Below, one piece after another: positions 52,795 through 64,000 of a stretch of DNA of 64,000 bases. A model generated the notes under the pieces. That model saw nothing but the letters and a program-made list of their open reading frames with translations. It was not told where the DNA came from and searched no databases. Source of the DNA: Catenulispora acidiphila DSM 44928 (GTDB lineage: Bacteria; Actinomycetota; Actinomycetes; Streptomycetales; Catenulisporaceae); the NCBI RefSeq assembly GCF_000024025.1, contig NC_013131.1, forward strand, positions 3,968,001 to 4,032,000, given 5' to 3'. The position numbers and the translations under genes were made by a program. The number at the start of each line of letters is the position of its first letter. The stretch's first letter is position 1.

Positions 52795-53871
52795 ATGGAC
52801 ATCGGAGAGATCGCGCGTCGTGCGGGGGTGGCGCGCAGCACCGTGTCGTATGCGCTCAGTGGGAAACGGCCGGTCTCGGTGGAGACGCGGCGGCGGATTC
52901 AGCAGGTCATTGACGAGCTGGACTATCGCCCCAATGCTTCGGCGCGCGCGTTGAAGGAGGGGCGGACTCGCACGGTCGGGCTGGTGATCCCGCCGGCCGG
53001 GCCGCGGTTGACGTCCATGCAGTTGGATTTCGTCGGCAGCGTCGTGGAGGCTGCGGCGCGGGTCGATCTTGATGTGCTGCTCTCGCCGTCCGGTGGCGAC
53101 CGTGACCGCTCGCTCGAGCGTCTGATCAGCGGTCGGCGGGTGGATGGCGTGATTTTGATGGAGATCCTCATGGAGGATTCCCGGGTGGCCAGGGTCGCGC
53201 AGAGCGGGGTGCCGTTCGTGACGATCGGACGCGTCCGCGACCCTGACGCGACGTGGTGGGTGGACATGGATTACGCGGCGCTGGTCGGCCGCTGCGTCGA
53301 TCATCTCGCCGACCTCGGTCACCGGCATGTCGCGCTCGTCAACCGCTCGCCCGCGCTGATGGCCGCCGGCTACAGTCCCGGCCATCGCGCCCGCGACGGG
53401 TTCGCCGAGGCGGTCGCTCGGCGCGGAGTCAGCGGATCAGAGTTCTGCTGTGAGGACGACGTCGCCGGTGGCGAGCGCTGCGTGGCGGAGATACTGGCGA
53501 CGCGCCCCAGCACGACCGCGATCGTCACTGTGAATGAGGCGGCGCTGCCGGGTGTGCAGCGCGCGCTGGAGCGCGCGGGCCATGAGATCCCGAGGACGTT
53601 CTCCGTCGCCGGGATCGCCGCACATCAGTGGGCTGAGGAGTTCCATCCGCCGCTCACGGCTGCCGACGTCCCGTCGCTGGCGATGGGTACCGTCGCGGTG
53701 GAACTGCTCGCCGAGCACATCGCCGATCCGGACGCGCCCGCCGGGCATCGCCTGTTCATGCCGCCGATCTCGTTGCGGGACAGCACCGGATCGGTGCCGC
53801 GGCCTTCGGCGCGGCCGGCGTTTTTCAGTCCGGCCGCGCCGAGGCGGTTCAGGGAAGCAGACGCGGATTGA
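52795..53871 (+). CDS. LacI-family regulator (GCGC-type paralogue, cellulase control)
   Basis: A 358-residue repressor. The helix-turn-helix is DIGEIARRAGVARSTVSYAL with hinge ELDYRPNASARALKEG; the sugar domain has TVGLVIPPAGPRLTSMQLDF. It is a paralogue of the LacI at 43905. It starts at ATG 52795 and its 3' end overlaps the convergent GH6 gene by 23 bases. The palindromes at 50091 and 55351 are its likely targets, giving control of GH43, GH6 and GH12. Confidence 0.92.
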   Translation: MDIGEIARRAGVARSTVSYALSGKRPVSVETRRRIQQVIDELDYRPNASARALKEGRTRTVGLVIPPAGPRLTSMQLDFVGSVVEAAARVDLDVLLSPSGGDRDRSLERLISGRRVDGVILMEILMEDSRVARVAQSGVPFVTIGRVRDPDATWWVDMDYAALVGRCVDHLADLGHRHVALVNRSPALMAAGYSPGHRARDGFAEAVARRGVSGSEFCCEDDVAGGERCVAEILATRPSTTAIVTVNEAALPGVQRALERAGHEIPRTFSVAGIAAHQWAEEFHPPLTAADVPSLAMGTVAVELLAEHIADPDAPAGHRLFMPPISLRDSTGSVPRPSARPAFFSPAAPRRFREADAD

Positions 53872-55153
53872 AGGTCAGCGTCGGGACGGCGTCCTGGACG
53901 AGGCCGAGTGCCTGGGCCGGCCACCACGCGCCGGCCGCCGGGTCCACCGTGCCGCCGTATTCGGGGTCGCCGGGACCCGCGGTGCTGCGCGTGCAGCTGC
54001 CGTCGGACTCGCCGATCGTCTTGATGAACAGGTCGGCGTCGACGAGCGGGACGCCGGTGGCGGCGGTCGGCGTGGCGCCGATGCCGCGACCCGGAGGGTT
54101 GCACCAGGTCTGGGGGTCGCCGGTGTACTTGCCGGGCGCCGGGGTCCATGCGCCCTTACCGTTGCGGCTGGTGTCCACGACGAAGTGGGTCAGCTGCGCG
54201 GGCGGGGGAGTGCCGACGTTCTGGTCGAACCAGGCGTCCGTCCAGTGCCAGGTGCTCGCATCGGTCGGGGACACCGCGTCGCCGGGCGCTCCGTCGTTCG
54301 GCGCCGCCGAGGAGTAGTACTGGCTGGCGCAGTAGTCGGTGTGTCCGGCTGCCCATGCCGGACCGTCGGTGGCGAACCACAGGCACTTGGAGATCCAGGT
54401 GCCGTACTGGTCGGTCTGGTCGGTCGGCTGGTAGTTGGACACGTTGAGGAAGAAGCCCTGGGACTGAGCGACGCCTGCCTGGATCAGGCGCTGCGCCATA
54501 TCGCCGACAGAGTGCCACTGGCTGTTTCCGGCGTCGAGGTAGACGACCGTCTGCGGCTGGGCTTCGAGGGCGGACACCGCGTACTTGATGTCGGCGATGC
54601 GCCCGGCGGTCAGCGTCCCGGTCGGGTCGGTGGTGGCATTGCAATCCGAGGGCAGGTTCGCCAGCGCGTCCGGCTCGACGATCACCACGGCCCGGCTCGA
54701 GCCGACCCCTTGTGCGAACGCTGATATCCACTGCTGGTAGGCGGCATCGGACGCCGCGCCGCCGGCGGAGTACTGACTGCAGTCCCGCAGCGGGATGTCG
54801 TAGGCGACCAGCACCGGAACGGCACGCTCGGCCGCGGCGGTCCGCACGGTCGCGCGGACCTGGTCGCGCACCTGAGCCGGCGTGCCGCTGGTGAACCAGG
54901 TCGCCTCGGGCCAGCTGGCCAGCTTCGCCATGGCCGCGGCGCCGGCGAGGTCGTGGTGCTGCAGATCGGTCAGTGCTTGGCGCTGGGCCTCGTTGTCGGG
55001 CGTGACGGCGAAGCGCGTGTCGGCCGGCAGCGTGTGCCCGGCGCTCGGGGCGTGCGCCGTGGTCGCGGTGGCCGCCGTGGCGACCGGACCCAAGGCGATG
55101 GCCGATGCGGAAAGACCTGCGGCGAGCAGGAGTCTCGCGGTTCTGGACAGCAT
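53849..55153 (-). CDS. Secreted GH6 cellulase
   Basis: A 434-residue exported protein starting at ATG 55153. A signal peptide of about 28-35 residues precedes the GH6 barrel. The catalytic region has YDIPLRDCSQYSAGG (Asp124), VIVEPDALANL with the acid Asp162, and HFVVDTSRNGKG. There is no CBM or linker: the chain ends soon after the last barrel strand, unlike the GH12 and GH48 neighbours. Whether it is an endoglucanase or cellobiohydrolase depends on active-site loops that cannot be judged here. Confidence 0.93.
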   Translation of the reverse strand: MLSRTARLLLAAGLSASAIALGPVATAATATTAHAPSAGHTLPADTRFAVTPDNEAQRQALTDLQHHDLAGAAAMAKLASWPEATWFTSGTPAQVRDQVRATVRTAAAERAVPVLVAYDIPLRDCSQYSAGGAASDAAYQQWISAFAQGVGSSRAVVIVEPDALANLPSDCNATTDPTGTLTAGRIADIKYAVSALEAQPQTVVYLDAGNSQWHSVGDMAQRLIQAGVAQSQGFFLNVSNYQPTDQTDQYGTWISKCLWFATDGPAWAAGHTDYCASQYYSSAAPNDGAPGDAVSPTDASTWHWTDAWFDQNVGTPPPAQLTHFVVDTSRNGKGAWTPAPGKYTGDPQTWCNPPGRGIGATPTAATGVPLVDADLFIKTIGESDGSCTRSTAGPGDPEYGGTVDPAAGAWWPAQALGLVQDAVPTLTFNPRLLP

Positions 55154-55277
55154 GATCCCCCACAGTGGTAGACGTCGGTGGCAGCACTGTCCGCGTGCTG
55201 GTGAAATCATGTCAACGTAGCGCGCCGACGTATCGCGCTGCGCGCTTCTCAAGGGGCGTTCGCCGCAGTGTGGCCGC

Positions 55278-55288
55278 TGAAAGTTTCA
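55278..55288. promoter_or_regulatory. TGAAAGTTTCA element
   Basis: A perfect inverted repeat (TGAAA-G-TTTCA) about 125 bases upstream of the GH6 start. A near copy, TGAAAGTTCCA, lies at 55402-55412, and TGTAACTTTCA at 57141-57151. Similar CGAAA-type elements precede Streptomyces xylanase genes. Confidence 0.5.
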
Positions 55289-55350
55289 TGGATGCGGCCA
55301 GATCGGATCCGCCGTCGGCATTCAGGATTGCCGAACTGGTGAGCGCTGTG

Positions 55351-55366
55351 TTCGAAGCGCTTCGAA
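55351..55366. promoter_or_regulatory. TTCGAAGCGCTTCGAA operator between GH6 and GH12
   Basis: A perfect 16-bp palindrome in the 456-base region between divergent GH6 and GH12 genes. Its 12-bp core equals the site at 50091. It is the best candidate for the LacI at 52795. The rest of 55154-55609 shows no gene. Confidence 0.85.
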
Positions 55367-55609
55367 GGGCTTTCGCCGACCGGTGAGCGGCGGTTCGACC
55401 GTGAAAGTTCCACGTCGCCGCCCGGGGGTCGCGCCGGCGCGTCTGGCGGCGGGACGACCCGTGGACCTGCGGCGTCCGGCGCGCCGCTGACTCGCGCGCC
55501 GCCGGGTCGCCATGGCGCTCCCCTTGCGGTCCGGGCGCCTTCTTGCCACGTTCACCAGCGATGCGGGGCGACCCATGCTCCGGCCGACGCTCGAAAGGAT
55601 GACATCCGG

Positions 55610-56992
55610 ATGGCTCGTCTACTCAGAGCACGTGCCCTTGCGGCCGCCCTCGCGATCGCTTTCACGGGGGCGCTCTCCGCGATCGCCCTGCCGGCTGCGC
55701 AGGCCGCCACGACCACGTGCTCCGGTACCGGCACGATCCCGGCCGGGGACTACACGATCCAGGCCAACGAGTGGAACTCCAGCGCACAGCAGTGCCTGAC
55801 CTACAACGGCGCGACCGCGTGGACGGTGAGCACTGCGAACTTCAACCTCGGCGGCAGCGGCGCGCCGGCCACCTATCCGTCGATCTTCAAGGGCTGTCAC
55901 TGGGGTCTGTGCACCAGCAACAACCCCTTCCCGATCCAGATGAGCAAGCTGGGCAGCGCTGTCAGTTCCTGGGACACCACGCAGCCGTCGTCGGGTGCTT
56001 ATGACGTCGCCTACGACATCTGGTTCAACTCCTCGCCCACCGCCACCGGCCAGCCGGACGGCACCGAGGTGATGATCTGGATGAACAGCCGCGGCGGGGT
56101 GCAGCCGTTCGGCTCGCAGACCGGCAACACCACGGTCGCCGGCCACAACTGGAACGTGTGGACCGGGCAGCAGTCCTCGTGGAAGATCATCTCCTACGTC
56201 CTGAACCCCGGCGCCACCTCGCTGTCCAACCTCGACCTCAAGGCGATGTTCCAGGACGCCGTGTCCCGCGGCTCCATCAACCCCTCGAACTACCTGCTCG
56301 ACGTCGAAGCCGGCTTCGAGATCTGGCAGGGCGGACAGGGCCTGGGCACCAACAGCTTCTCGGTCTCGGCCACCGCTGCCGGGTCCGGCGGCGGCGACAC
56401 CACGGCGCCGTCCGTTCCGGCGAACCTCGCGGTCACCGGGACGACCGCGTCCTCGGCCTCGCTGTCGTGGTCGCCGTCCACGGACAACGTCGGCGTCACC
56501 GGATACCGCGTGTACCGCAACGGCGCCCAGGTCGGCACGTCCAGCGGGACCACGTTCACCGACACCGGTCTGAGCGCCGCGACGCACTACACGTACACCG
56601 TCGCCGCCGTCGACGCGGCCGGCAACGTCTCGGCGCCGTCGACCGGCGCGACCGCGACGACGACCTCGAACGGGGGAGGAGGAGGTGGCAGCGGATGCAC
56701 AGCGGCCTACTCGGTGACCAACCAGTGGAACTCGGGCTTCACCGCCAACGTGACCGTGACGAACTCCGGGACGGCGCCCATCAACGGCTGGAAGGTGAAC
56801 TGGACCTGGGGCGGCGGCCAGCAGATCACCAGCCTGTGGAACGGCACGCTGAGCAGCAGCGGATCGGCGGTGACCGTCACGAACATGGGCTACAACGGCT
56901 CGGTGGCGCCGGGAGCGAACACATCGTTCGGCTTCCAGGGCGCCTATTCGGGTACTAACGGGACCCCGACGCTGACCTGTACGGCGAGCTGA
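55610..56992 (+). CDS. Secreted GH12 endoglucanase with Fn3 and CBM2
   Basis: A 460-residue exported protein with a Sec signal peptide ending near AAQAA (about 33). The GH12 domain has the nucleophile Glu153 in GTEVMIWMNSRGG and the acid/base Glu237 in EAGFEIWQGG. A single Fn3 domain (about 264-352, TAPSVPANLAVTGTTASS) links to a CBM2 (CTAAYSVTNQWNSGFTANV to the end). It cuts internal bonds in cellulose or related beta-glucans. It starts at ATG 55610 with GAAAGGATG upstream. Confidence 0.95.
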   Translation: MARLLRARALAAALAIAFTGALSAIALPAAQAATTTCSGTGTIPAGDYTIQANEWNSSAQQCLTYNGATAWTVSTANFNLGGSGAPATYPSIFKGCHWGLCTSNNPFPIQMSKLGSAVSSWDTTQPSSGAYDVAYDIWFNSSPTATGQPDGTEVMIWMNSRGGVQPFGSQTGNTTVAGHNWNVWTGQQSSWKIISYVLNPGATSLSNLDLKAMFQDAVSRGSINPSNYLLDVEAGFEIWQGGQGLGTNSFSVSATAAGSGGGDTTAPSVPANLAVTGTTASSASLSWSPSTDNVGVTGYRVYRNGAQVGTSSGTTFTDTGLSAATHYTYTVAAVDAAGNVSAPSTGATATTTSNGGGGGGSGCTAAYSVTNQWNSGFTANVTVTNSGTAPINGWKVNWTWGGGQQITSLWNGTLSSSGSAVTVTNMGYNGSVAPGANTSFGFQGAYSGTNGTPTLTCTAS

Positions 56993-57249
56993 CAGGAGCC
57001 TGGCGGGGATCTGAATGCCGGTTGTGCTCGTCGCAGTACATTGCGACGGGCGCAATCGGCATGCTCTATGTGAATGCGCAGTTGTGCGGGCGATTCCTTG
57101 TTTCGTCTGGCTACACATTCCAGGCCTGGCGTCACGCACCTGTAACTTTCACCTCCGACGAGGCGCCGATCATCGCGACTGAATTCTCGATCACGGCCAT
57201 GACCTGCGGTTTCCGGCCCTGAGGTGGAGATCATGAAGTCGTGAATCAG

Positions 57250-57278
57250 TTGACAGCATGTAACACCGCGCTGAACAT
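57250..57278 (+). promoter_or_regulatory. Probable GH48 promoter
   Basis: TTGACA (57250-57255) and, 17 bases later, GAACAT (57273-57278) lie 65-90 bases before the GH48 ATG. Their position shows that the open frame beginning at 57241 is not the true start. The rest of the 350-base gap from 56993 holds the TGTAACTTTCA element and no gene I can support. Confidence 0.6.
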
Positions 57279-57342
57279 CACGGGTGATCGAGCCGCTTCT
57301 GCCGGGCTATATCTCGGCAGTCCCCCGAAGCAGAGGTATTCC

Positions 57343-60264
57343 ATGACCAAAAAGTTGTCGCGCAGACAATTCGCGACCGCGGCCGGCGGAGCCGTCCTGG
57401 CGTCGGCCGTCGCACCGTCCATGTCGCGGGCGGCGAGTGTCGCCCCGGCCGCGGCCTCGGCCGCCACGGATGCCTACACCCAGCAGTTCCTGACCCAGTA
57501 CAAGAAGATCAAGGACCCGGCGAACGGCTACTTCAGCGCGCAGGGGATCCCGTACCACAGTGTGGAGACGCTGATCGTCGAGGCGCCGGACTACGGGCAC
57601 CAGACGACCTCGGAGGCGTTCAGCTTCTGGATGTGGCTGGAGGCGACGTACGGCCGGGTGACCGGTGACTGGACGGCGTTCAACAACGCCTGGACGACGG
57701 CCGAGCACTACATCATCCCGCAGCACGTCGATCAGCCGAGCAACAGCTCCTACAACCCCAACTCGCCGGCGACCTACGCCCCGGAGTGGCCGGACCCCAG
57801 CAGCTACCCCAGCCCGCTCAACACCTCGGTGTCGGTCGGCCAGGACCCGCTGGCCAACGAGCTGACCTCGACGTACGGCACGTCGGACATCTACGGCATG
57901 CACTGGCTGATGGACGTCGACAACAAGTACGGCTACGGGAACACGCCCGGTACCGGCGGGGAGGCCGGTCCCAGCGCGACCGGGCCGTCGTACATCAACA
58001 GCTACCAGCGCGGCGCGGCGGAGTCGGTGTGGAAGACGATTCCGCAGCCGACCACGGACCTGTTCAACTACGGCGGTCCGAACGGATACCTCGACCTGTT
58101 CGTGGCGCAGTCCGGCTCCTACTCCAAGCAGTGGAAGTACACGACTGCCCCCGACGCCGACGCCCGCGCCATCCAGGCCGCGTACTGGGCCTACCGCTGG
58201 GCCTCGGCGCAGGGCGCGCAGGGCCAGATCGCCGCCTCGGTCGCGAAGGCCGCGAAGATGGGCGACTTCCTGCGCTACTCGCTGTTCGACAAGTACTTCA
58301 AGCAGATCGGGAACTGCACGAACGCCAGCTCCTGCGCGGCCGGCACCGGCCGTGGCTCCGAGCACTACCTGCTGGCCTGGTACTACGCCTGGGGCGGGGC
58401 GGAGCCCGGCGGCGGCTGGGCCTGGCGGATCGGCGACGGCGCCGCGCACCAGGGGTATCAGAACCCGCTGGCGGTGTGGGCCATGACGAACATCGCCGCG
58501 CTGACCCCCATGTCTCCGACCGCCAAGAGCGACTGGACCGCCAGCCTGACCCGGCAGATGGAGTTCTACCAGTGGCTGCAGTCCGCCGAGGGCGCCATCG
58601 CCGGCGGCTGTACGAACAGCTGGAACGGCTCGTACAGCGTGCCGCCGTCGGGTGACTCGACGTTCTACGGCATGGCCTACGACTGGGAGCCGGTCTACCA
58701 CGACCCGCCGAGCAACAACTGGTTCGGCATGCAGGCCTGGTCGATGGAGCGGCTCGCGGAGTTCTACTACGTCACCGGCAACGCCACCGCCAAGACGATC
58801 CTGGGCAAGTGGATCACCTGGGCTTCCTCGAAGACCACGGTCACCGCCACCAACTTCCAGATCCCCTCCACGCTCGGCTGGACCGGACAGCCGGACACCT
58901 GGAACCCGACGAGTCCGGGCGGCAACTCCGGGCTGCACGTGACGGTCGCCGACTACGGCAACGACGTCGGCGTCGCGGCGGCGTACGTCAAGACCCTGAC
59001 GTACTACTCCGCCAAGTCCGGCGACACCGCCTCCGGCGCCCTCGCCAAGAGCCTGCTCGACGCGATGGCGACCTTCGCCGACACCGCCGGCATCGCCACG
59101 CCCGAGACGCGCACCGACTACAGCCAGTTCAACGACACGGTGTACGTGCCCTCCGGCTGGTCCGGCAAGATGCCCAACGGCGACCCGATCGCCCCCGGCG
59201 CCACCTTCTTGTCGATCCGCTCGTGGTACAAGAACGACCCGGCCTGGCCGAAGGTGCAGGCCTACCTCAACGGCGGATCCGCCCCGACGTTCACCTACCA
59301 CCGCTTCTGGGCCCAGGCGGACATCGCCATGGCCTACGCGGTGTACGGCGAGCTGATCGCCGGCGGCGGCGGTACCGGCGGCGACACGACGCCGCCGAGC
59401 GTGCCGACCGGTCTGACCGTCACGGGGACCACCAGCAGCACCGCCTCGCTGTCGTGGACGGCTTCGACCGACAACATCGGGGTGGCCGGCTACACCGTGT
59501 ACCGGGGCACCACCGTGGCCGGTTCCGCGACCACGCCGACGTTCACCGACTCCGGACTGGCCGCCTCGACGCAGTACAGCTACACGGTCACGGCCCACGA
59601 CGCCGCCGGCAACGTCTCCGCCGCCTCCGCCGCCGTCAAGGCCACCACCACCGCCGGGACCGGCGGCGGCGACACGACGCCGCCGAGCGTGCCGACCAAC
59701 CTGGCGGTCACCGCCACGACCAGCAGCAGCGTCTCGCTGTCGTGGACGGCCTCGACCGACAACGTCGCGGTGACCGGCTACACCGTGTACCGCGGCACCA
59801 CGGTGGCGGGCACCACGACCTCGCCGACCTTCACCGACTCCGGACTGACCGCCTCGACGCAGTACAGCTACACGGTCACGGCCCACGACGCCGCCGGCAA
59901 CGTCTCGGCAGCCTCCGCCGCCGTCAAGGGCACCACCTCCGGAACCGGCGGGGGCACCGGCCCGACCTGCACCGCTACCTACAGCGTCACCAGCGACTGG
60001 GGCAACGGCTTCAACGGCAACGTCACCATCACCAACACCGGGACGACCGCGACCAAGTCCTGGAAGGTCACCTGGACCTGGGGAGGCAACCAGACCATCA
60101 CCAACACCTGGAACGCCACCGAAACCCAGTCCGGCAAGGCCGTGACCGCGACCAACGCCCCCTACAACAACGTCATCGCCCCCGGCGCCAGCACCAGCTT
60201 CGGCTTCAACGCCAGCTACTCCGGCACCAACGGCGCGCCGACGGTCACCGTCACCGCTACGTGA
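57343..60264 (+). CDS. Tat-exported GH48 cellobiohydrolase with two Fn3 domains and CBM2
   Basis: A 973-residue protein starting at ATG 57343 behind AGAGG. The signal has a clear twin-arginine motif (KLSRRQFATAAGG). The GH48 domain (about 45-670) begins YTQQFLTQYKKIKDPANGYFS and has VETLIVEAPDYGHQTTSEAFSFW, the region with the acid Glu, and NKYGYGNTPGTGG. Two nearly identical Fn3 domains and a CBM2 end the chain. It is the processive reducing-end exocellulase that complements GH6 and GH12. Confidence 0.95.
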   Translation: MTKKLSRRQFATAAGGAVLASAVAPSMSRAASVAPAAASAATDAYTQQFLTQYKKIKDPANGYFSAQGIPYHSVETLIVEAPDYGHQTTSEAFSFWMWLEATYGRVTGDWTAFNNAWTTAEHYIIPQHVDQPSNSSYNPNSPATYAPEWPDPSSYPSPLNTSVSVGQDPLANELTSTYGTSDIYGMHWLMDVDNKYGYGNTPGTGGEAGPSATGPSYINSYQRGAAESVWKTIPQPTTDLFNYGGPNGYLDLFVAQSGSYSKQWKYTTAPDADARAIQAAYWAYRWASAQGAQGQIAASVAKAAKMGDFLRYSLFDKYFKQIGNCTNASSCAAGTGRGSEHYLLAWYYAWGGAEPGGGWAWRIGDGAAHQGYQNPLAVWAMTNIAALTPMSPTAKSDWTASLTRQMEFYQWLQSAEGAIAGGCTNSWNGSYSVPPSGDSTFYGMAYDWEPVYHDPPSNNWFGMQAWSMERLAEFYYVTGNATAKTILGKWITWASSKTTVTATNFQIPSTLGWTGQPDTWNPTSPGGNSGLHVTVADYGNDVGVAAAYVKTLTYYSAKSGDTASGALAKSLLDAMATFADTAGIATPETRTDYSQFNDTVYVPSGWSGKMPNGDPIAPGATFLSIRSWYKNDPAWPKVQAYLNGGSAPTFTYHRFWAQADIAMAYAVYGELIAGGGGTGGDTTPPSVPTGLTVTGTTSSTASLSWTASTDNIGVAGYTVYRGTTVAGSATTPTFTDSGLAASTQYSYTVTAHDAAGNVSAASAAVKATTTAGTGGGDTTPPSVPTNLAVTATTSSSVSLSWTASTDNVAVTGYTVYRGTTVAGTTTSPTFTDSGLTASTQYSYTVTAHDAAGNVSAASAAVKGTTSGTGGGTGPTCTATYSVTSDWGNGFNGNVTITNTGTTATKSWKVTWTWGGNQTITNTWNATETQSGKAVTATNAPYNNVIAPGASTSFGFNASYSGTNGAPTVTVTAT

Positions 60265-61372: not shown

Positions 61373-61567
61373 GGAGGCTGAATACCGGCCGGATCCGCAA
61401 GAGGCGCTGCCGCGGGTCCGGCCGGACCCTTTGGGCGCAGCGGTCCGGTCCGGTCTGGTTCGGTACCTCGGCGCCGGATGAGGCGAAACGCCCTCCTCGG
61501 CCAGGGCCCTGCTGTTAGCCTGAGAGTGAATCAGTGGTCGCACACAGTCAAGGGGAGGCTGTGGGAC

Positions 61568-63439
61568 GTGGGGGCGACAAGAACGCGAGGCCCTTTCGGG
61601 CGCGAGCCGGTCTTCGAGTACGTCGACAGCGCGTTGAAACGCAAGGGCACCCCTCGGGTCCCGGTGCCCGCGATGCTGCTGATCGGACCTCGGGGCAGCG
61701 GCGGGACCGCCGTGCTGAACCGGTTGTGGGCCGACCATGTGAACTGCCCCGGCGCCAAGGTCGCAGCGGTCTGCGACGAGAGCGTGGGCAGTGTCCTCGG
61801 ACGGGCCATGCTGGCCTTCAGGGACAAGCGCGGGCTCGGGGTGCGGCCGGTCGAGGGCTTCCCGCACATGATGATGGCCGCCAAGGCGCTGCGGTATCCG
61901 GGCGACCCCGATGACCTGCAGGCTTTCATCGAGTACCTGCAGCTGCCGATCGACGCCGACGAGATCGCCGCCCTGGTGCGGCTTCTGCTGCCCGGTTTCG
62001 CGGCGCTGTCGGATCCCGACGCCCTGGCCGAGCTGATCAAGCGGCTGTTCGCGGCCTTCAAACGGTCGGAGTCCGACCGCCTCGCCGCCGACATCGGCGG
62101 GTACCCGGTCCTGCTCGACGCCGCCGGGCGGTACCAGCAGGCGCAACAGGCGAAGGCGGTCCGCGCGCCGCAGAAGTGCGACCGGCTGCTCGTCGAGGCG
62201 TTCCTCAGCGATCTGCGGGACGACTCCAACCGCAAGCGTGCCGTGCAGCGGCACGCCAACCTGCTGTTGCTGCTCGACGACTGCGACGGCGAAACCGGAG
62301 ACCGGCTCCTGGACCTGATCGCCGACTGCCGGCGCACCGCGCACCACGACGGTCCCCAGCCCGACCCGCTCGTCATCGTCGCGGTCCGGCACCGGGTGCG
62401 ACCCGGGATGAGCCCCGTGGCGGTCGCGGCGAACGACGGCAAAGCGCTGCGCTTCGTCCCGCTCGAACGCGGCGCCGCGCTGCCCCAGCACGCCGAACTG
62501 TGGCGCCCGGTCCTGCTGACGCCGCTGGATTCCGACGACGCGCTGGCGATGATCCGGACCATGGAGACCGGCAGCGACCACCAGGACGCCGATTTCGTCC
62601 TGGCCCTGGCCGGCGGTCATCCCGCAGCGGTCCGGGAGCTGACCGACCTGCTGGTCGATCTGCAGGAGGCGGCCGTCGGACCGCCGGGACTGTTCGCCGG
62701 GCCCTGGCCGTCCGACGGCGGGTCCGGGCCGGTCGGCCAGGCCTCGGACACCGTCCTGGACCACCTGCTCGAACGCTTCCTGGACACCGGTCCCGCGCGG
62801 CTGGACCGGCTCGCCGTGATCGCCTCGTCGGCGGCCGGGCTCGACCTCTCCGCCTGCAATTCCGTCTACCACTACCTGGGGTGGGACGACGAGGTCACCG
62901 ACGACGAGACGTGGCTGCGCACCCGGCTGTGGATCGAGGACCACGCGGACTCCGGCCCGCAGCTGCACCCCTTCGCCGCCCGGCTGTTGCGGCAGCGGCT
63001 GGCCCGGGACCCGGCGCTGTGGGACAAGGTGCACGGCCAGTTCGAGCGCCACTACGACCGGGTGGGCGGCGCACACAGCCGCAACGCCCGGTTGTGGCAC
63101 ATGATGGCGACGGTGACCGGTCCGGACGACGCCGCTCTGAACGCCGTCGTCGAAGTCCTCATGGCCGAGATCGCAAAGCGGCCGATCGAGGAGTTCCGGC
63201 TGCTGGTGGACACGATCGCGACCGCGCCCAGCCGGCTGGCGCCCGCCGCCAACGCCGTCCTGGAGCTGAACCGCATCGCCGGGCGGCGGGACCGCGGCGA
63301 CGCTCGCCGGACGGTGACCCGCCGGCTCGTGGCGCCGTGGCTGCACGACACCGTCTATCTCGACCCCCGCGGAGACCTCGCCGACTACGTCGTGGCCGAG
63401 AACGGCTATCTGCTTTCCTTCGGAAGGGACAGCAAGTGA
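61568..63439 (+). CDS. Large ATPase-like protein with a lysine-less P-loop
   Basis: A 623-residue cytosolic protein from GTG 61568, chosen because GGGGAGG lies 9 bases upstream; an in-frame ATG at 61478 is less likely. The N-terminal module has MLLIGPRGSGGTAVLNRLW, a P-loop in which Gly replaces the catalytic Lys (residues 40-47), and a Walker-B-like LLLLLDDCDG near 232-241. The C-terminal half is helical, as in STAND proteins. The stop overlaps the next GTG start (GTGA), so the two genes are coupled. The function is unknown. Confidence 0.7.
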   Translation: MGATRTRGPFGREPVFEYVDSALKRKGTPRVPVPAMLLIGPRGSGGTAVLNRLWADHVNCPGAKVAAVCDESVGSVLGRAMLAFRDKRGLGVRPVEGFPHMMMAAKALRYPGDPDDLQAFIEYLQLPIDADEIAALVRLLLPGFAALSDPDALAELIKRLFAAFKRSESDRLAADIGGYPVLLDAAGRYQQAQQAKAVRAPQKCDRLLVEAFLSDLRDDSNRKRAVQRHANLLLLLDDCDGETGDRLLDLIADCRRTAHHDGPQPDPLVIVAVRHRVRPGMSPVAVAANDGKALRFVPLERGAALPQHAELWRPVLLTPLDSDDALAMIRTMETGSDHQDADFVLALAGGHPAAVRELTDLLVDLQEAAVGPPGLFAGPWPSDGGSGPVGQASDTVLDHLLERFLDTGPARLDRLAVIASSAAGLDLSACNSVYHYLGWDDEVTDDETWLRTRLWIEDHADSGPQLHPFAARLLRQRLARDPALWDKVHGQFERHYDRVGGAHSRNARLWHMMATVTGPDDAALNAVVEVLMAEIAKRPIEEFRLLVDTIATAPSRLAPAANAVLELNRIAGRRDRGDARRTVTRRLVAPWLHDTVYLDPRGDLADYVVAENGYLLSFGRDSK

Positions 63440-64000
63440 GAGACAACGGTGCCGTGGCGCAGCTGTGGGCCGGCTACCGCGCACTGGCCAGCCTGTGGCA
63501 GGCCGTCATCGCCCTCGTGCTCGCGATCGCGCTGGGCCTGGTCGGGTATGTCGGCATCGGCGCGCTCGTCAGGGGGATCACCGGTCCCGACTACTGCTCG
63601 CACCACGGCGCGACGATCGTGGAGAAGGCAGGAACCGAGTGCGTGGGCGTGTCCGACGGGTCCTACGATTTCGACCCGACACTGGCCGCCGTGGACAAGA
63701 AGATCTTCACCGAGAACCAGACTGTCACGAGCCAGCACCCGGACGACTACGCGACGATCGTCTATCTCCTGCCCATCTCCTCGGCCGACGGCAGCGTGCT
63801 GAACATCCAGAACACCGTCGAGCAACTCCGCGGCGCCTACGCCGCCCAGCACCACGCGAACACGTCCGACGTCGATGGTAAGAGCCCGTATATCCAGATA
63901 CTGATCGCCAGCGACGGCCGCCAAGCCGAGCAGTGGTCCAAGACCGTGCAGCTGATCGCCAAGACGGCCGACGCGCACCGCGTGGCCGCCGTCGCAGGCC
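63436..64000 (+). CDS. Membrane-anchored protein resembling a type 1 periplasmic binding protein (partial)
   Basis: The gene begins at GTG 63436, overlapping the ATPase stop, and runs off the window after 188 codons. One membrane helix (about 18-45, WQAVIALVLAIALGLVGYVGIG) is followed by an external part with CSHHGATIVEKAGTECVGVSDG, DPTLAAVDKKIFTEN, YATIVYLLPIS and YIQILIASDGRQAEQW, which resemble the first lobe of receptor-type (Leu/Ile/Val-like) ligand-binding proteins. Its coupling to the ATPase suggests a sensor or transport module. Confidence 0.65.
   Translation, partial: MRDNGAVAQLWAGYRALASLWQAVIALVLAIALGLVGYVGIGALVRGITGPDYCSHHGATIVEKAGTECVGVSDGSYDFDPTLAAVDKKIFTENQTVTSQHPDDYATIVYLLPISSADGSVLNIQNTVEQLRGAYAAQHHANTSDVDGKSPYIQILIASDGRQAEQWSKTVQLIAKTADAHRVAAVAG

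Follow-up and report, generated by a model that had tools for sequence, protein, structure and literature searches.

A membrane-anchored clamshell protein and a STAND-fold partner in Catenulispora acidiphila and its relatives: a candidate sensory module with repeated loss of the Walker A lysine

What can an ATPase-like protein do when the lysine of its P-loop is missing and its gene runs directly into one for a membrane-anchored binding protein? The question is raised by two genes at the right end of a 64,000-nucleotide stretch of Catenulispora acidiphila DSM 44928 (NC_013131.1, positions 3,968,001 to 4,032,000; hereafter the window), termed here gene 1 (61568..63439) and gene 2 (from 63436 onward). 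Positions refer to the window, and the features given for the two genes lie on its + strand. A preliminary description, made from the sequence alone, had pointed to a GTGA overlap between the genes, a P-loop GPRGSGGT with Gly in place of Lys and a Walker B-like LLLLLDD, all of which are indeed in the sequence. We propose, at a probability of roughly 0.6, that the pair is a transmembrane sensory module, in which an amino-acid-type clamshell outside the cell would be coupled through one helix to a STAND-fold switch inside.

The open frame of gene 1 extends from a GTG at 61568 to the TGA at 63437-63439 and encodes 623 amino acids (aa). As judged by eye, AAGGGGAGG ends 9 nt ahead of this GTG, and an in-frame ATG at 61478 is an alternative start that would give 653 aa. 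The degenerate Walker A motif GPRGSGGT occupies residues 40-47 (61685..61708), with Gly46 at the Lys position, while LLLLLDD (residues 232-238; 62261..62281) has the hydrophobic run, the Asp and the second acidic residue of a Walker B motif. Arg255 (62330..62332), identified by alignment of homologues, lies in the helix after Walker B and is invariant in 90 of 90 homologues, regardless of the state of Walker A. Further downstream, GGHP (residues 349-352; 62612..62623) is found at what we take to be the site of the STAND GxP motif, and LHP (residues 466-468; 62963..62971), in the winged-helix region, is presumably placed like the MHD motif of NLRs; many homologues have DP or other letters at this site.

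The predicted model of gene 1 matches the core fold of STAND NTPases, in which a nucleotide-binding domain is followed by helical and winged-helix domains, and a GxP-type motif and a winged helix are present after its nucleotide-binding domain. In a Foldseek search the model came closest to Avs3, a STAND protein of anti-phage defence (E 3e-5); immune and death switches made up the remaining leading matches. A Pfam scan, with the C-terminal helical part folded and searched only as part of the whole protein, returned nothing but weak AAA-type matches, a sub-threshold AAA_16 match among them, and chance-level ones. Little was gained from PDB searches with single sequences, and the best 60 of 86 PDB matches to a gene 1 profile were other P-loop proteins, none named STAND. 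NCBIfam and PADLOC searches with both proteins also added little, PADLOC giving zero matches for gene 1 and one weak match, SspE (E 0.016), for gene 2. On the predicted model, gene 1 is a STAND-fold, inactive-looking homologue; it is not classed as an active STAND ATPase because GPRGSGGT lacks the canonical GK[ST] ending.

The stop of gene 1 and the GTG start of gene 2 share the GTGA overlap (63436..63439). The first 188 codons of gene 2, a membrane-anchored type I periplasmic-binding protein (PBP), lie in the window (63436..64000), and when the sequence was extended rightward along the 10,467,782-bp contig the gene, described earlier as cut by the window, was completed at 532 aa (L005:2436-4034). 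Its single hydrophobic helix is predicted from sequence and model at about residues 22-44 (63499..63567; residues 19-48 in the model), with the N-terminal tail inside and the C-terminus outside, and no lipobox was noticed by eye. The predicted model is two-lobed, of the LivJ/LivK type I PBP fold, and its fold matches include ABC solute-binding proteins and AmiC (1qnl, 1pea, 1qo0), while the best sequence match of the gene 2 profile was the metabotropic glutamate receptor mGluR5. The receptor-type ligand-binding domain on one membrane helix that had been suspected is thus what the predictions show. The pocket residues S192, T216, Y263 and D360 are conserved and supply the Ser, Thr, Tyr and acidic residue of an amino-acid pocket; their ligand roles are presumed by us, and D360 and R332 were equated with LivJ residues by eye. 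The protein also carries an N-terminal segment and four conserved Cys.

Are the two genes a unit? Among 60 relatives, including the window's own genome, gene 2 homologues were found in 34 and, with a single-sequence search, gene 1 homologues in 6, and a single protein search with gene 1 yielded 3 homologues because the family is divergent; an alignment search corrected this low count. In a profile search, gene 1 was matched 92 times over 106 loci. Gene 2 was next on the same strand in 87 of these, three were in one frame with gene 2 (L064, L082, L179) and two were without it. The fairest count comes from 60 loci fetched because of gene 1 (L123-L182), picked by hand down ranked lists and not at random, with a profile for which 29 of 31 rows came from loci also holding gene 2: gene 2 was present in 58 of the 60 and absent from L161 and L164, L123 being the same place as L047 and L181 having a stop inside its gene 1 match. 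Furthermore, the two are co-inherited: protein distances of gene 1 and gene 2 correlate across 86 loci (r 0.92), a value reached in none of 999 permutations. Gene 1 and gene 2 are therefore a conserved module, kept together in many relatives of Streptomyces, with pairing beyond chance, and the coupling proposed in the preliminary description holds.

Within the order, gene 1 occurs in at least 190 of 391 sampled genomes; a phylum sample of 396 genomes has it in at least 6, five of them from the same order with the window's own genome counted; these are lower bounds, three candidates having been scored per genome. L181, the one match of the phylum sample from beyond the order, has a TGA within the matched stretch. 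At L161 and L164, gene 1 has a K[ST] Walker A and converges on genes that, judged by eye, resemble cytochrome c biogenesis membrane proteins.

The two parts may also be joined in one chain. Sixteen further receptor frames were without a gene 1 match in their own locus, and 15 of them are at least 851 aa long, with a long stretch ahead of the predicted membrane helix. A profile built from 12 of the 16 (L068, L074, L081 and L085 being left out) together with L064 aligned with the NTPase region of gene 1 at an hhalign probability of 99.3. The order in these proteins is NTPase-like domain, predicted membrane helix and clamshell, and no P-loop was seen in the 13 profiled frames. The single-chain class comprises L064, L070, L072, L074-L081, L083, L084 and L086, with frames of about 890-1320 aa and a P-loop-less gene 1-like domain. 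In single-chain and other forms the pocket is looser, Asp replacing Ser192 in 7 of 18. L179 was rejected as a true fusion: gene 1 model positions 3-476 precede the receptor, whereas those from 479 onward are read in another frame that overlaps the first, which suggests a frame break.

How widely is the lysine lost? Walker A endings were counted in 90 distinct gene 1 sequences, namely matches with E <=1e-100 without L064, L082, the second frame of L179, the duplicate L123 and P0003 (a 97% identical partial copy), and with P0004 and P0005 added. Canonical K[ST] endings were present in 47 (KT 28, KS 19), Lys without Ser or Thr in 12 (KG 11, KA 1), and no Lys in 31 (AS 11, GT 7, GS 4, RS 4, RT 4, TS 1). 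The Walker B Asp is directly followed by Asn in 66 of the 90. On a gene 1 tree built without the motif columns, the Lys state needs at least four changes (Thr counted with Ala), and four are likewise needed on a gene 2 tree; both trees are quick ones with long branches, including that of P0005, so that some joins are unsure. All 11 sequences with Gly fall into a single supported clade, and its sister, P0005, has GPRGSGKT. As read from these alignments, the change from Lys to Gly is real, conserved in its own clade and one of several Lys losses. Absence of the Lys is not a hallmark of the family, as 47 of the 90 homologues end in K[ST], and Gly in its place is confined to this one derived clade. 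Homologues with a normal Walker A and no fixed neighbour, which would have spoken against a coupled pair, were not the pattern found, as those with a normal Walker A have the fixed neighbour.

The dN/dS ratio (nonsynonymous to synonymous substitution) of gene 1, a simple NG86 estimate on GC-rich genes, was 0.21, 0.32, 0.41 and 0.57 in four Gly-clade pairs, 0.17 in an Ala-clade pair, against 0.33 for a canonical pair and 0.42 for a KG pair. Since the values are below 1 in the Gly- and Ala-clade pairs, the Lys-less copies do not look like decaying genes. Compensation for the lost Lys by another basic residue was considered and rejected: 10 columns hold a basic residue in 90% or more of the Gly clade but in less than 60% of the rest, yet none of them is in the P-loop and none could be tied to the nucleotide site; Arg42 of the P-loop was ruled out in this role, as GPRGSGK[ST] also occurs. 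A further variant, with Lys kept and Gly in place of Ser/Thr, is seen in L065-L067, L135, L137, L141, L152, L156, L159 and L182, and in L143 of another clade; the main KG clade has His or Arg after the Walker B acid.

A STAND switch typically has sensor repeats of its own and works by ATP/ADP exchange. Compared with the STAND NTPases (NLR/NB-ARC, CED-4, Apaf-1/Dark, Avs3, archaeal 2qen and MalT), gene 1 lacks the Walker A Lys and has no recognised repeat sensor or effector domain, and the sensor is a separate transmembrane protein. Gene 2 would hold a clamshell of the leucine-binding-protein/mGluR type at the outer face of the membrane through one signal-anchor helix and would sense a small ligand; an amino acid or a close analogue is the likeliest. 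As the clamshell closes, or as its dimer state changes, a signal may then travel inward through the helix and an inner tail of about 20 residues to gene 1, which would be in contact with gene 2. Gene 1 would be the cytosolic receiver, its core built like that of NLRs and CED-4 from nucleotide-binding, helical and winged-helix domains. In the Gly clade, where the P-loop Lys is lost, the switch probably has weak or no nucleotide turnover and may act as a ligand-gated scaffold, whereas in clades with an intact Walker A it may still use nucleoside triphosphate (NTP) exchange. Hydrolysis would be expected to be slow where Asn stands in Walker B. The switch may respond to the outside ligand alone in the Gly, Ala and fused clades. 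The output could conceivably be oligomerisation that recruits another protein.

Parts of this arrangement have known counterparts. Like the ectodomains of class C GPCRs (mGluR, calcium-sensing and taste receptors), gene 2 would be an amino-acid-type clamshell serving as a receptor, but with a single helix and a STAND-fold partner instead of a seven-helix domain. A PBP-fold sensor that directly controls its partner, as proposed here, is known from the AmiC-AmiR pair of Pseudomonas; unlike gene 2 and gene 1, AmiC resides in the cytosol and AmiR works as an antiterminator. No description of such a combination was recognised in the open-licence literature, judged on titles and abstract openings.

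The main rival reading is a membrane-tethered defence or cell-death system, in which gene 1 would detect an intracellular invader, with the clamshell as an adaptor and not the trigger. The Foldseek matches to Avs3 and other immune and death switches speak for it, and inactive STAND modules have been described in conflict systems of multicellular bacteria (PMC7159879; PMC8195603). There, iSTAND and iSTAND2 form the third part of vWA-MoxR systems, which have effector and EAD domains, and are proposed nucleic-acid sensors (PMC7159879; PMC8195603). Gene 1 shares with them an inactive-looking STAND fold and a place in a multi-gene system of a multicellular bacterium, but its partner is a transmembrane PBP. 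A passage of PMC7159879 speaks of absence from actinobacteria, and iSTAND2 systems are reported in actinobacteria too (PMC8195603). The PADLOC results, with nothing for gene 1, speak against a defence role, as does the lack of a recognised effector domain; no vWA or MoxR partner was found among 20 flanking genes scanned, the search being confined to these. The conserved ligand pocket, in addition, suggests a small-molecule trigger, and we consider the defence reading unlikely.

Could gene 2 instead be the solute-binding protein of an amino-acid ABC importer encoded elsewhere, with gene 1 a regulator co-transcribed by chance? Its fold is that of ABC solute-binding proteins, some homologues are annotated 'ABC transporter substrate-binding protein', and 4 of the 20 scanned flanking genes encode solute-binding proteins of ABC systems from families other than that of gene 2 (SBP_bac_1 in L044, L046 and L048; SBP_bac_5 in L043). 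However, no ABC permease or ABC ATPase domain was found among these 20, a selected set that excludes the many-helix neighbours in L050. Gene 2 differs from LivJ/LivK in its membrane anchor, its N-terminal segment and its four conserved Cys, and in having no such partners beside it in the genes scanned. The retained helix without a noticed lipobox, and the single-chain forms that join receptor to NTPase-like domain across a membrane helix, also argue against an importer, which we regard as quite improbable; a signalling switch, as first proposed, fits the pair better than a transporter or a kinase.

The view that Gly-clade gene 1 is a decaying relic whose P-loop change means loss of function could draw on the broken Walker A and on divergence (35-36% to the Catenulispora orthologues L042 and L051), but it is highly improbable and already contradicted by open frames in the 11 clade members compared, dN/dS below 1 in four pairs, a partner kept in the 10 members whose locus was read, retention of Walker B and Arg255, and a Gly conserved across genera.

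The preliminary description had allowed for further partners after gene 2, but no conserved one was seen: flanks differ between clades in the scanned set, and within its 20 flanking genes no third member was shared across clades, many listed flanking genes being outside the scan. The window pair is preceded by DoxX and followed by a methyltransferase and a LuxR/AAA_16 regulator; the latter (L005:5002-7863), whose AAA_16 domain keeps an intact P-loop, is oriented like the pair and lies two genes downstream of it. Upstream of the pair, 53849-60264 holds secreted, carbohydrate-active-looking genes that, judged by eye, resemble cellulases with cellulose-binding domains. In relatives the flanks include SBP_bac_5 (L043), tRNA dihydrouridine synthase and P450 (Longispora, L049), a 2-oxoglutarate (2OG) oxygenase (L052), MFS, polyprenyl synthase, AraC and others. 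In Actinacidiphila-type loci (L046:4173-5480, L046:9488-11653 and like places in L044 and L048), the neighbours of the pair are an SBP_bac_1 gene, for an extracellular solute-binding protein, and, where scanned (L046, L048), a DUF4139/DUF4140 gene.

If the pair is a sensory module, it points to an unassigned receptor family of soil bacteria, with a conserved sensor outside the cell on a separate protein, in which the grip on ATP appears to have decayed several times while the ligand pocket was kept. More tentatively, this might be a class of bacterial transmembrane receptors whose extracellular amino-acid clamshell acts directly on an NLR-like switch close to the membrane; in several lineages, the present one included, the outside ligand would then have independently taken over from NTP binding as trigger. 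The natural series of Lys, Arg, Ala, Gly and no P-loop may allow one to ask what nucleotide binding adds to an NLR-type switch.
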